Assembly (NCBI GenBank): GCA_902567495.1
Contig: CACFMO010000008.1
Span: forward strand, 1 to 56,450
DNA: 56,450 nt
Reading direction: 5' to 3'
Source of the DNA: an uncultured Pelagibacteraceae bacterium
Lineage (GTDB): Bacteria; Pseudomonadota; Alphaproteobacteria; Pelagibacterales; Pelagibacteraceae
The notes under the pieces: generated by a model
What the model was told of the DNA's origin: nothing
Seen by the model: only the letters and a program-made list of their open reading frames with translations
The model's database searches: none
Program-made: the position numbers and the translations under genes
Shown: positions 32,279-36,466 of the stretch, piece after piece
How the letters are laid out: every line of letters starts with the position of its first letter
Position numbering within the stretch: position 1 is the stretch's first letter

Positions 32279-32330
32279 AATAAGAATGTATCGATGAAAA
32301 ACGGATTTACAAGCTGTATTTTTGATTTCA

Positions 32331-32349
32331 TGGGGGCATAAAGCCCCCA
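32331..32349 (-). terminator. GC-rich hairpin at the 3' end of the accessory cassette
   Basis: A 7-bp stem TGGGGGC / GCCCCCA with loop ATAAA lies 11 bp past the GIY-YIG-like gene stop and upstream of mnmG. On the minus strand it is not followed by a clear T run, so it may act as a pause, partial terminator or 3' stabiliser rather than a full terminator. Confidence 0.6.
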
Positions 32350-32359
32350 CGAATTTTTA

Positions 32360-33079
32360 CTAGTCGGATTGTCGACCAAGTTGATGGTTATGGGGAGGTA
32401 GCGATCCGTGAAGATTGACATAGTTATCAATGTGCCAACTCTCCCAAGACCTACGCTCCTCGTCGCTCATCGTGTTCATTGGAGAATAGAAAACTTGGTG
32501 CATCACAACCCCTTTTTCTTTTTTCTCCTTAAGCCTTCGAGCTAGATTGTTGGTCTCTCCAATATTCAAAATGTTGCCATTAAAGAGTATCTTATAAATG
32601 GCAGCATCCTTTGGAGGATTTTCTAGATCCTTAAGCTCAACCTCAAATTCAGGTGCGATAGGTATATAGTATAGACCTGTATCTTTGCATATCCTGAGTT
32701 CGGTTTTTCTGTCCTTAAGAGGCTTCTTTACAATTGCAGCAAATCTAGGAACTTTTCTGACTACTGTAGTAGTCCCAGAAATAGTTGCCCCAGATCTTAC
32801 TGATGTATCTTTAGGTTTTAATAGCTTAAAATTGTTTCTAGCTACTTCACCCTTATTAAACCTTAGATACAGCCTGGTTGTTTCAGCAAGCTCTGTTAAG
32901 GAAGAAATATGACAGTGAGTATAATCATCAACATTCATTGCCCGACATGCACTAACACTTAATCCAATAGTTTGCTCTTTTGGAGTAACTGTTGGTCTCT
33001 TAGCTACAAATCCAGACTCTTTCTCAATATCGATGAAATTATGCTTATTTTCACTTTCAATGAGTTTTAAATCTGTCAT
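32360..33079 (-). CDS. GIY-YIG-like nuclease-domain protein, accessory
   Basis: A 239-aa protein in the cassette between mnmG and mnmE. The C-terminal ~80 residues look like a GIY-YIG domain: AIYKILFNGNILNIGETNNLARRLKEK, split as IYK (161-163), NIGET (172-176) and RR (181-182), then E213 in WESWHIDNY and N231 in LPPHNH. The arginine, glutamate and asparagine of the active site are present; the second tyrosine (YIG) is asparagine (NIG). The N-terminal ~150 residues are unrecognised. Parts are GC-richer than neighbouring genes. It starts one base after the 107-aa gene (TAA-T-ATG), so the two are coupled. Possible roles are homing, phage-derived or defence nuclease; none is proven. Confidence 0.6.
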   Translation of the reverse strand: MTDLKLIESENKHNFIDIEKESGFVAKRPTVTPKEQTIGLSVSACRAMNVDDYTHCHISSLTELAETTRLYLRFNKGEVARNNFKLLKPKDTSVRSGATISGTTTVVRKVPRFAAIVKKPLKDRKTELRICKDTGLYYIPIAPEFEVELKDLENPPKDAAIYKILFNGNILNIGETNNLARRLKEKKEKGVVMHQVFYSPMNTMSDEERRSWESWHIDNYVNLHGSLPPHNHQLGRQSD

Positions 33080-33080
33080 A

Positions 33081-33404
33081 TTAATTTAGCTCCTTTCCGC
33101 CTTTGATTTTTCCAGAAAACACGACCATCGACTGATCGTATAAACTGTTGTGATTTACAATTGGTTCAGTCCTTGGATCTAGAATTTCATGAGGGTAGTC
33201 TATACTGCCGTCATTACCTTTTAGATCGCTTAACTGCTTGTAAAAGATATCAAGAAAATCACACATTTTTTGTGATCTCCAAAGAGGATTATCGATGTCA
33301 ACGTCGTCCGCAATGAACGATCTAACGATAATAATATCTGCCTCTTTTTTTACTTCGGGTGTGTACTTAATTAAAGACACACCTTTCCTGTTACCATTAT
33401 TCAT
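33081..33404 (-). CDS. Hypothetical 107-aa protein of the accessory cassette
   Basis: I recognise no family. The protein is soluble-looking, with an acidic middle (FIADDVDIDNP) and a basic start (NNGNRKGVSLIKYTPEVKK); no signal peptide or membrane segment is seen. A purine-rich ribosome-binding region (AGGAAAGGAAAG) precedes the ATG and is partly held in the 3' strand of the structured leader. It is tightly coupled to the GIY-YIG-like gene. The pairing of a small protein upstream of a nuclease-like gene allows the guess of a regulator or inhibitor, but this is inference from layout only. Confidence 0.65.
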   Translation of the reverse strand: MNNGNRKGVSLIKYTPEVKKEADIIIVRSFIADDVDIDNPLWRSQKMCDFLDIFYKQLSDLKGNDGSIDYPHEILDPRTEPIVNHNSLYDQSMVVFSGKIKGGKELN

Positions 33405-33419
33405 AGTTTGCTTTCCTTT

Positions 33420-33495
33420 CCTGAGGGCTTGTTTGTTAAAAGATTGTGGTATACAAAATACCTGGATAACAATCTATTCGGCTGGTGCCCTCAGG
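33420..33495 (-). ncRNA. Candidate structured 5' leader (cis-regulatory RNA) of the accessory operon
   Basis: On the minus strand a 9-bp closing stem CCTGAGGGC (33495-33487) / GCCCTCAGG (33428-33420) encloses an inner arm. That arm has a 7-bp stem AGATTGT (33475-33469) / ACAATCT (33447-33441) with a stacked 5-bp stem GGTAT / ATACC (33462-33458 / 33452-33448), a six-base bulge, and a 5-base loop. The end of the closing stem touches the ribosome-binding region of the 107-aa gene. It matches no riboswitch or tRNA I can recall. Confidence 0.5.
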
Positions 33496-33512
33496 GGTAC
33501 CCGCCCGAATTT

Positions 33513-34982
33513 TTAAATATCTTCTACCGTTATTGGTTTCGACTTTTTGAGTTCTACATCCAATTTTTTTCCTCCATTTAAAATTGTCTCTATAGTTTTT
33601 TTTACGTTATAGTCGTAATAAGGTAATAGTTTAGAGACGTATTCTTCTAATACTATTTTATAATTTTTTTTCTTAATCCATGCCTCACGACTTTTTTGAT
33701 CTAAATTATCATCTAACGTAAATGATTTCGATAAAGAAGCCCAATCATCAAATTTAACAACATTATAAAATCTAGAGTCGTTGGTAATTATTTCATAACA
33801 TTTGTCTTGTCTTATTTGAGTTTCTGCGAGCCAATCATCTGGATCTTTTGGCATACCATTATCAAAATTCAATTTATCTTCAGATCCATAAATAAAATTA
33901 AAATCTTTTAAAATATTATTTGGTAACTCACTTCTTAAACCCTCTGAAATAGTTTTCAGCATGGCTTTAAATGTTGAAGCTGTATAACTTTTTCCAATAA
34001 TTTTTGTTCCAAGATTTTTAAAACTAAAATCTCCGTTTTGTTGTTTTTTATAGACAATATCCATGTCCTCTAAGACTGTTTTGCTTACTTGATTGTTGTA
34101 GGTGATCTTTTCTAATTTGGGGTGTCTACATAAGACAAAGAAGGAGTATAAATTACTTACAGGGGCTAAAATATACTCGTTAGGTTTATTTGGATTAAAT
34201 GTGCTTGAGGAGTCCTCTCCGTCAAAATATTCTGTGAACTGACCAAGTGGAGTATTGTCTTTCCACCAGCTTTTAGGGTAAGGCCAATATGTTGTAAAAG
34301 GATGCAAGCCATAATAAATATATATAGGATTTAATTTTTTACCTCTTTGACTTTGTGCGTAAACTATTGGATTTGAATCATAACTATCTTGACTTGACTC
34401 AAATTCATAACCTTCAACTAAAGCATCTATCAGTTCTTGAATATCATCTTCTAAATCAAACATCTTTTTTAATTCCTCTTGCGAACCAAAGTTATCAGAT
34501 TTAACTTCATTAATTGGATCTGCTTTTATTTTTGAGTAATTATCAATCAAGCTCATAAATTGTTTTGTAGCACGATGCTGTCCCCAATTATCTGCCCTTC
34601 CAACGTCTATAATAAATTTTCTTTTAGTAGATACTGAAATATTTTTATTAAAAAAAGGAGATTTTATCGTTCTTAAAGGTATAAGGTTTATTTCGCTGAA
34701 TCTTTCTAACGGTATATCTTCTGTTCTAGGTAATTTTTTTCTAGTTTTATTTATTTTTAAATCCTCTGGGGAAACATTGAGAACATTGGCAACAATATTA
34801 ATTGTTTTGTCTGATGCTATCAGTTCATTTTCCATTCTTTGCAATGTTTTATCTCCAAATGCTTTTAAATTATTTGATCTACAATATTCCTCCACGCTTC
34901 TCATCAAAACATCTTTTGTTTTGAATCCTTTGTTTTTTCTAAATTCTGCAATATCTGATCTAATATTTTTTATATTGTTCAT
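33513..34982 (-). CDS. XRE-type helix-turn-helix protein with large unknown C-terminal domain, accessory
   Basis: A 489-aa protein, first of the accessory cassette. Residues 4-77 look like an XRE helix-turn-helix with an enlarged loop: IRSDIAEFRKNKGFKTKDVL, then KTLQRMENELIASDKTIN and VANVLNVSPEDL. The remaining ~410 residues match nothing I know; they are rich in Trp/Tyr in the centre (LHPFTTYWPYPKSWWKD) and acidic elsewhere, with no membrane segment. Upstream are four copies of GTCCAA/TTGGAC flanking a TATAAT box, suggesting autoregulation. A regulator of the two downstream genes, or a sensor-effector in a defence-type module, are both plausible. It sits between mnmE and the 107-aa gene. 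Confidence 0.7.
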   Translation of the reverse strand: MNNIKNIRSDIAEFRKNKGFKTKDVLMRSVEEYCRSNNLKAFGDKTLQRMENELIASDKTINIVANVLNVSPEDLKINKTRKKLPRTEDIPLERFSEINLIPLRTIKSPFFNKNISVSTKRKFIIDVGRADNWGQHRATKQFMSLIDNYSKIKADPINEVKSDNFGSQEELKKMFDLEDDIQELIDALVEGYEFESSQDSYDSNPIVYAQSQRGKKLNPIYIYYGLHPFTTYWPYPKSWWKDNTPLGQFTEYFDGEDSSSTFNPNKPNEYILAPVSNLYSFFVLCRHPKLEKITYNNQVSKTVLEDMDIVYKKQQNGDFSFKNLGTKIIGKSYTASTFKAMLKTISEGLRSELPNNILKDFNFIYGSEDKLNFDNGMPKDPDDWLAETQIRQDKCYEIITNDSRFYNVVKFDDWASLSKSFTLDDNLDQKSREAWIKKKNYKIVLEEYVSKLLPYYDYNVKKTIETILNGGKKLDVELKKSKPITVEDI

Positions 34983-35131: not shown

Positions 35132-36466
35132 TTACTTACCTATACAGAAATCCTTGAAAATGGCCCCTAGGATCTCCTCTACATCGACCTTTCCTACGAT
35201 ACTGCCTAGATGCCTAGTAGCTAATCTTAGATCTTCTGCTGCTGTTTCAATCTCTTTGGATTGATCCTTCTTTAGAAACTTTTCAATTTCTTTGAGAGCT
35301 GCATTTAACTTGGTTCTATGCCTTTCTCTGGTTACTAAAACGTTATTTGATCTAATAAATTTTTTAGATAATTTTTGCTTAATAATTTTGATGAGCTTAT
35401 CGATATTTTTATTTTTTTTAGCTGATATTAAAATTTGATCATTTTTCTTAAATTCATTTTTTGGAGTTTTTTTACTTAAATCAGATTTATTAAAAACTAA
35501 TATACAGTCTTTATTAATTAATTTCTTAACATCTTTATTAATTGTTTTTTTTGATACATCAATCATGACCAAAGTTAAATCAGCTTCTTTTGCCTTTTTA
35601 ATAGCTCTTTTAATACCCTCTTTTTCGACCTTATTTTTAGCTTTTCTTATTCCCGCAGTATCGGCCAAAATAACAGGATATCCATCTATATTTAAATATG
35701 TCTCTACCACATCTCTTGTGGTGCCCTCCTCCTCCGAGACGATTGCAGCATCTCTTTTTGCAAGAAGATTTAATAAAGATGACTTCCCAGCATTAACGTC
35801 TCCTATGATAGATATTCTAAAACCATCTCTAATTTTTTCCCCGACTTTTTGATCCTCTAGAATTTGTTTAATATCAGTGTGGACTTGTTTAATTGACTCT
35901 TGAACACCCTTTAAAACATTCCCGGGAAGATCATCTTCTGCAAAGTCTATTTGAGCCTCTATATACGATAATGATTTAACCAATTTTTCTCTTAAGTTTT
36001 CATAATATTTGGATGCATATCCTTGAACTAAATTTGCCGCTTGTTCCCTTTGAAGCTCAGTTTCAGCGTGTATTAAATCTCCAATACTTTCTGCTTTAAT
36101 AAGATCTATCTTATTATTCTGAAAGGCAATCTTAGTGAATTCTCCTGGTTCAGCTAATCGACAATTTTTTTGGTCTGATAGAACCTTTAAAAGATAGCTT
36201 ATTACAGCATTACTTCCATGAATATGAAGTTCAGCTAAATCATCCCCTGTGAAACTATGGGGTTTGGGAAACCACAAGAGTAGTGCCTCGGGATCAATAA
36301 TTTTTTTATTTTTTGGGTCTATAAATTTACATAAATTTATCTCATTGGATTTAATATTTTTTTCATTAGTTAAAGACTTACAAATATCAAGTGTCTGCGG
36401 ACCAGATATTCTTACTATAGCTATACCGCTTGGGCCTTTTCCTGAGGATAATGCAAATATATTCAT
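35132..36466 (-). CDS. mnmE: tRNA modification GTPase MnmE (TrmE)
   Basis: A 444-aa GTPase partner of MnmG in cmnm5U34 synthesis. The N-terminal folate-binding domain starts IFALSSGKGPSGIAIVRISG. The G domain carries GDVNAGKSSLLN (P-loop), DTAGIRK (G3) and NKSD (G4). The protein ends in the conserved FCIGK, whose cysteine is essential. The complete C-terminus shows that the cassette did not disrupt the gene. It is 10 bp from the divergent ogt start. Confidence 0.97.
   Translation of the reverse strand: MNIFALSSGKGPSGIAIVRISGPQTLDICKSLTNEKNIKSNEINLCKFIDPKNKKIIDPEALLLWFPKPHSFTGDDLAELHIHGSNAVISYLLKVLSDQKNCRLAEPGEFTKIAFQNNKIDLIKAESIGDLIHAETELQREQAANLVQGYASKYYENLREKLVKSLSYIEAQIDFAEDDLPGNVLKGVQESIKQVHTDIKQILEDQKVGEKIRDGFRISIIGDVNAGKSSLLNLLAKRDAAIVSEEEGTTRDVVETYLNIDGYPVILADTAGIRKAKNKVEKEGIKRAIKKAKEADLTLVMIDVSKKTINKDVKKLINKDCILVFNKSDLSKKTPKNEFKKNDQILISAKKNKNIDKLIKIIKQKLSKKFIRSNNVLVTRERHRTKLNAALKEIEKFLKKDQSKEIETAAEDLRLATRHLGSIVGKVDVEEILGAIFKDFCIGK

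Follow-up and report, generated by a model that had tools for sequence, protein, structure and literature searches.

A spacer on the minus strand of this DNA, at positions 33405-33512, carries a perfect G+C-rich pairing that ends at the ribosome-binding region of a small gene, which raises the question of what this element is, on which strand it acts and what it controls. The window, i.e. the whole stretch of 56,450 nt analysed here, is among the 25 contigs of a 0.97-Mb SAR11 (Pelagibacterales) draft genome, and named SAR11 records contain close homologues. On balance, we lean towards a cis-acting leader that controls the translation of a 107-aa protein and the adjoining GIY-YIG protein within a swappable three-gene cassette. 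The motif and the cassette appear to be undescribed, while the architectural principle is known; literature searches found no description of this cassette, and the text of PMC2704228, searched for gidA, trmE and GIY-YIG, gave nothing. The features of the locus are as follows.

33513..34982, minus strand: 489-aa protein, hypervariable first cassette gene with an HTH-like N-terminus (diverged family alignment A10; low identity between cassettes)
33505..33510, minus strand: H1 5' arm, lower part ATTCGG, pairing with 33476-33481; 2 nt 3' of the stop of the 489-aa gene
33499..33501, minus strand: upper H1 pairs, GGT with ACC at 33484-33486
33487..33495, minus strand: S2 5' arm CCTGAGGGC, within the H1 loop; perfect complement of 33420-33428
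33476..33486, minus strand: H1 3' arm ACC..CCGAAT, the 'linker' of an earlier note on this DNA; no gap after the S2 5' arm
33475..33516, plus strand: H1 read on the opposite strand, ATTCGGC..CGCCCGAAT then TTTTT; candidate antisense RNA with terminator (plus-strand fold, A·C/G·U asymmetry)
33441..33475, minus strand: inserted hairpin hp3, AGATTGT / bulge TATCCA / GGTAT-TTTGT-ATACC / ACAATCT; the inner stem covaries
33428..33431, minus strand: CAAG motif, just before or within the S2 3' arm; kept in 13 of 14 clade-1 leaders
33420..33428, minus strand: S2 3' arm GCCCTCAGG; 15 nt lie between its end and the 107-aa ATG
33413..33419, minus strand: AAAGGAA, ribosome-binding site for the 107-aa gene, directly adjoining S2 (from the sequence)
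33081..33404, minus strand: 107-aa protein, first of the putatively controlled pair; predicted bbabb fold, no known family
32360..33079, minus strand: 239-aa GIY-YIG-domain protein with an unnamed N-terminal domain (Foldseek; Pfam in homologues)

The cassette and its genes

The cassette lies on the minus strand between mnmE (35132-36466) and mnmG, in the order 489-aa gene, leader (33405-33512), 107-aa gene and 239-aa gene, the G+C content being 44 % in the leader and 30 % in the window as a whole. Of the cassette genes, the first varies most, and one member of its family gave a weak match to HTH_3 (0.0013). The 107-aa protein was modelled as a bbabb fold with moderate confidence (pLDDT 76) and has no convincing structural relative, the best PDB fold match, i.e. 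to phage neck/tail-terminator proteins, being weak (Z 6.4). The 239-aa gene starts 1 nt after the stop of the 107-aa gene. The GIY-YIG domain of its product was modelled with a pLDDT of 86 and matched UvrC domains in Foldseek with a probability of 1.00 and an E value of only 0.018, and Pfam GIY-YIG matches reached 3.9e-8 in homologues. Judged by its predicted fold and by conserved Tyr, Arg, Glu and Asn residues (Y162, R182, E213 and N231, invariant in 18 homologues), the protein can be assigned to the GIY-YIG nuclease superfamily. Its nuclease activity is uncertain, since the second tyrosine (that of YIG) is replaced by N in the window's protein. None of the three window proteins matched a known anti-phage defence model in PADLOC, and protein searches of viral contigs returned no relative, so that no phage source was found. 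These combinations of an HTH-like, a small and a GIY-YIG protein have the look of a conflict or nuclease system not described so far.

By profile search, the cassette family was detected in 18 of 397 family genomes, and two genus searches brought in further relatives. The order-wide profile search added no strong new cassettes except one distant match, most of its weak matches resembling uvrC; likewise, the ~616-aa ORFs that the family profile weakly matches in most genomes are probably uvrC. The closest cassette is that of SAR11 strain PRT-SC02 (L015), which occupies the same site and shows 64 % and 44 % identity for the 239-aa and the 107-aa protein, respectively. The mnmE-mnmG site holds the cassettes of the window, L015, L158, L159, L160 and L162, three others (L156, L157 and L163) are adjacent to recA, and the rest are found at further sites. 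As a rule, an HTH-like first gene of ~280-490 aa is followed by the leader, then by a protein of 103-124 aa and last by a GIY-YIG protein of 230-250 aa. A divergent clade (L166, L184, L167, L186, L170, L185, L009 and L010) has an extra Cas4-like PD-(D/E)XK protein, located for instance at L010:6132-6842 and L166:5917-6624, whereas L008 and L171 adjoin ExoI-like genes instead, and L008 also rmuC.

Shortly 3' of the 239-aa gene, the window contains a strong hairpin, GGGGGC-TTTAT-GCCCCC (32325-32345), of which L015 has a counterpart conserved in kind (GGGGCTC..GAGCCCC); this is possibly the end of the cassette transcript.

Pseudoknot architecture and covariation of the leader

On the minus strand, the element at 33420-33510 corresponds to an H-type pseudoknot with an inserted hairpin. 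The earlier note had described a 9-bp stem closing around a two-part inner arm and ending at the ribosome-binding region. The perfect pairing is indeed present on the minus strand, and the stem is real; its enclosing role is not, as it represents S2 of the pseudoknot in an element that reaches 33510. The linker ACCAGCCGAAT, formerly regarded as single-stranded, contains the 3' arm of H1, the other arm lying just beyond the segment then described. As in classical H-type pseudoknots, the S2 5' arm of the window is followed directly by the H1 3' arm. An apical CCC/GGG extension of H1 competes with S2, i.e. upper H1 and S2 in the window compete for the same bases. Between H1 and the S2 3' arm, the leaders of the window's clade carry hp3, whose lower stem is conserved and whose tip covaries (inner stems GGTAT/ATACC, GATAT/ATATC, AGTGT/ACACT and TGATA/TATCA). 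A pattern scan across the 397 family genomes located genuine hp3 copies in this cassette only, and the pattern matches outside cassettes, which lacked the partner strands, were rejected as copies. The hp3 bulge ATCCA (33463-33468) is kept in sequence in all mnmE-site leaders, and no pairing accounts for its conservation.

The rarity that had been claimed for such long perfect pairing was confirmed: in a scan for perfect 9-bp repeats with at least six G/C and a spacer of 20-80 nt, CCTGAGGGC/GCCCTCAGG was the only one of its class in the whole 56-kb window, and none occurred in 20 local shuffles. When the minus strand was folded by itself for minimum energy, the result was not exceptional (z -1.8, 12 of 200 shuffles being as good), and the plus strand gave z -2.8. 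The modest minus-strand value arises because the minimum-energy programme cannot draw the pseudoknot, in which H1 overlaps S2; scored as a pair in the window, H1 and S2 reached z -3.5, a value that none of 200 shuffles equalled.

Comparison of homologous leaders, which the earlier note had named as the check, revealed strong covariation: the arms of H1 and S2 are nearly all different between leaders yet complementary, the stems being kept via compensatory changes. The S2 arms are, for instance, GGCTGCAGAC/GTCTGCAGCC in L163 and GCAACTTAA/TTAAGTTGC in L181, and GCAACACCCAGA/TCTGGGTGTTGC and TGGTAAGCTCGGA/TCCGAGCTTACCA in L166 and L184 of the divergent clade. In this last sub-clade H1 and S2 are kept in unrelated sequence, with an S2 of 12-13 bp (z -7.8 and -7.9). 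As MAFFT shifts S2 by one column in some rows, the main evidence is an alignment-free test, in which the H1-loop region of each of 18 leaders was paired with every leader's tail, thereby avoiding alignment bias. The duplex with the leader's own tail averaged -18.1 kcal/mol as against -10.4 kcal/mol with other tails (0/20000 permutations) and -10.0 +/- 0.6 kcal/mol with shuffled tails. The corresponding values for the H1 arms of 16 leaders, with segments anchored on hand-chosen S2 arms, were -11.5 and -6.3 kcal/mol (0/20000 permutations). In an alignment of seven leaders (A11), both sides had changed in 11 of 30 pairs (0/500 shuffles), including 7 of 12 pairs of helix 1, and 83 % of the cells were paired, compared to 28-45 % for slid structures. 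The topology is weak in L009 and L010, and H1 is poor in L156 and L182. S2 could be drawn in 20 leaders, and in 16 of these its 3' arm stops 12-18 nt short of the ATG.

Compensatory change in both stems and the pairing of the loop with a downstream segment thus place the leader, as far as sequence comparison goes, among the H-type pseudoknots. This near-full sequence turnover, with topology and start-codon distance nearly fixed, amounts to an unusually clean natural covariation experiment, and the leader would represent a previously undescribed pseudoknot motif, missed by Rfam and by pseudoknot-free folding, in a bacterial group that ranks among the most abundant on Earth.

Strand, control of translation and comparison with known leaders

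The proposal of a candidate cis-regulatory RNA therefore holds for a conserved structured leader; the cis-regulatory part of it is what we infer, and the functional RNA may come from either strand, given the wobble pattern of the window's clade. Counted on the gene strand as Watson-Crick, G·U and A·C pairs, H1 gave 181/3/18, S2 169/1/1 and hp3 129/1/7, with hand-picked arms, G·U and A·C scored alike, and cells that are not independent, as several leaders share columns. An RNA of the gene strand should show more G·U than A·C, so the asymmetry, as seen in the clade of the window, suggests the opposite strand. The 26 A·C as against just 5 G·U in the hand-drawn stems argue against a purely gene-strand RNA. 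The window's clade accounts for all 26. The divergent clade has a single G·U and lacks A·C, and for H1 of its member L166 the gene strand gives the more stable hairpin (-17.0 vs -11.4).

We give a minor though real chance to antisense control of the IncB/IncI-alpha rep-leader type, in which a short plus-strand RNA, consisting of H1 and a U tail, would bind the H1 loop of the mRNA and block S2. The H1 mismatches of the window's clade, nearly all of which are A·C on the gene strand and therefore G·U on the opposite one (18 vs 3, all H1 arms), fit such an RNA, as do an opposite-strand H1 that is 3-7 kcal/mol more stable in L015, L158, L159, L162 and L163, a T run after H1 on the plus strand in the window and several relatives, and promoter-like hexamers ending just before H1, e.g. 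TTGTGA-17-TACAAT in L015. However, the promoter signal is weak (summed score 107 vs 100.8 +/- 3.3 in shuffles), about half of the leaders have no T run, and the pair asymmetry is absent from the divergent clade. Scores for an antisense promoter upstream of S2, from which a full-length antisense RNA would start, were not above those of shuffles. A stand-alone, pseudoknotted plus-strand RNA of ~95 nt, e.g. an RNA antitoxin or guide with H1 as its terminator, is unlikely: read on the opposite strand, H1, S2 and hp3 would indeed hold 26 G·U and 5 A·C, but there is no promoter signal upstream on the plus strand (129 vs 131 +/- 3.8), and such an RNA would leave unexplained why, on the gene strand, S2 keeps a near-fixed distance from the start codon.

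We return to the cis-acting leader as the preferred reading. Pairing potential, covariation, topology across clades and a near-constant position before the start codon are evident in the leaders compared, and we infer from there to an action on translation, a coupling of the two genes, a sign of control and an input. The spacer 33405-33512 would be the leader of the 107-aa/GIY-YIG gene pair, and its mRNA would fold into an H-type pseudoknot in which S2 joins the H1 loop to the stretch immediately preceding the Shine-Dalgarno sequence and hp3 is inserted in between. Formation or melting of S2, which abuts rather than covers the Shine-Dalgarno sequence, would then set translation initiation of the small protein, and control would pass to the GIY-YIG gene through the 1-nt-spaced junction, thereby holding tightly in check an operon whose nuclease could be harmful. 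The input could be a protein of the cassette or an antisense RNA, or else the ribosomes arriving from the gene upstream. Regarding the sign, the same architecture activates in repZ. In SAM-V, it represses (PMC6061858).

The closest parallels include the repZ leader of IncI-alpha ColIb-P9 and the repA leaders of IncB and IncL/M plasmids (cited in PMC10724649), where a hairpin loop likewise pairs just upstream of the Shine-Dalgarno sequence of the controlled gene and an antisense RNA, here only a candidate, may lie opposite the hairpin. In the IncB/IncI rep leaders, RNAI acts on stem-loop I (PMC10724649), and competition with pseudoknot formation is named in the titles of works cited there. In contrast, the SAR11 cassette has neither a replication gene nor a plasmid, no leader peptide was identified, and S2 is hypervariable, at 6-13 bp. 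The replication initiator typical of IncB/IncI is replaced downstream by the 107-aa protein of no known family and the GIY-YIG protein.

Small-molecule control was one reading of the earlier note, which had seen candidate ligand or protein contacts in linker and bulge. A metabolite riboswitch with the conserved CAAG and ATCCA segments as its pocket is very unlikely. SAM-II and SAM-V are H-type pseudoknots beside the ribosome-binding site or near the start codon, and SAM-V is known from SAR11 (PMC6061858, PMC2704228); the SAR11 leader, however, has much longer stems, an extra hairpin and nuclease-type rather than metabolic genes downstream, and the divergent clade keeps the topology without the putative contact sequences, i.e. 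there is no clade-wide ligand pocket. As the earlier note had surmised, no known class was matched: with the Rfam covariance models, including SAM-II, SAM-V and preQ1, the leader did not exceed a gathering threshold, its best sub-threshold matches were unrelated and the window yielded only a tRNA, on which basis a known riboswitch class was rejected. An HDV-like ribozyme, similar in strand order, was considered and set aside, as there was no Rfam match and no such core was noticed. Programmed stop readthrough or frameshifting of the first gene was discarded as well, the distance from its stop to H1 varying from 2 nt to ~100 nt and the frame in the window closing again at a TAG within the leader.

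In type III toxin-antitoxin loci (ToxIN), a pseudoknotted RNA is also found upstream of a small gene. Unlike these, the SAR11 leader has no tandem RNA repeats, and the predicted bbabb fold of the small protein has no confident structural match. A survey of structured RNAs in Pelagibacter lists a pseudoknotted rpsB leader together with the motif later called SAM-V (PMC2704228). Like such autoregulatory leaders of ribosomal-protein genes, which are thought to control the downstream operon, our element is a pseudoknotted mRNA leader; its topology and genes are different, and binding of a cassette protein is a candidate.

Exchange of cassette modules

The leader marks exchangeable HTH/small-protein/GIY-YIG cassettes at fixed sites of the SAR11 chromosome. 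In L156 and L157, which share the recA-side site in a near-identical locus, the GIY-YIG proteins are 100 % identical, while first gene, leader and small protein are dissimilar, which at the sequence level is module exchange in an otherwise near-identical locus. The small and GIY-YIG proteins of L180 and L181 are 90-92 % identical, with first genes and leaders that are not common to both, and L170 and L185 differ in leader and first gene despite a GIY-YIG identity of ~99 % (tblastn match). L167 and L186, on the other hand, share their leader but have different first genes. Together, these patterns indicate that a leader is swapped along with genes next to it, although its link to the first gene is not strict.

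Such exchange of first gene, leader and sometimes small gene between cassettes with identical GIY-YIG genes might also be expected if the hairpin acted as DNA, i.e. as a site of recombination or insertion that separates the exchangeable first gene from the remainder of the cassette. We consider this very unlikely, given that the cassette has no integrase or transposase, that S2 is nearly always perfectly Watson-Crick paired and sited at the ribosome-binding site, and that L167 and L186 combine a common leader with different first genes. More speculatively, and with rather low probability, the exchangeable HTH-like gene, small protein and GIY-YIG nuclease may form a mobile, modular conflict cassette, kept in check by a hypervariable pseudoknot RNA that serves as its specificity lock; only the regulator or antisense RNA of the same cassette would recognise a given leader, and this would drive the near-complete sequence turnover under constant topology.

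In L164 (1365-1520) and L165 (410-565), all that the mnmE-mnmG site retains is 52 codons, with 69 % identity to the C-terminal end of the GIY-YIG protein of PRT-SC02; this remnant suggests decay or deletion of a cassette. In the window, a 16-nt near-identical direct repeat (TAAAAATTCGGGCGGG / TAAAAATTCGTGGGGG, minus strand; 33500-33515 and 32344-32359) flanks the unit of leader, 107-aa and 239-aa genes at both ends, exactly at stop codons, and may mark a boundary or an insertion scar.
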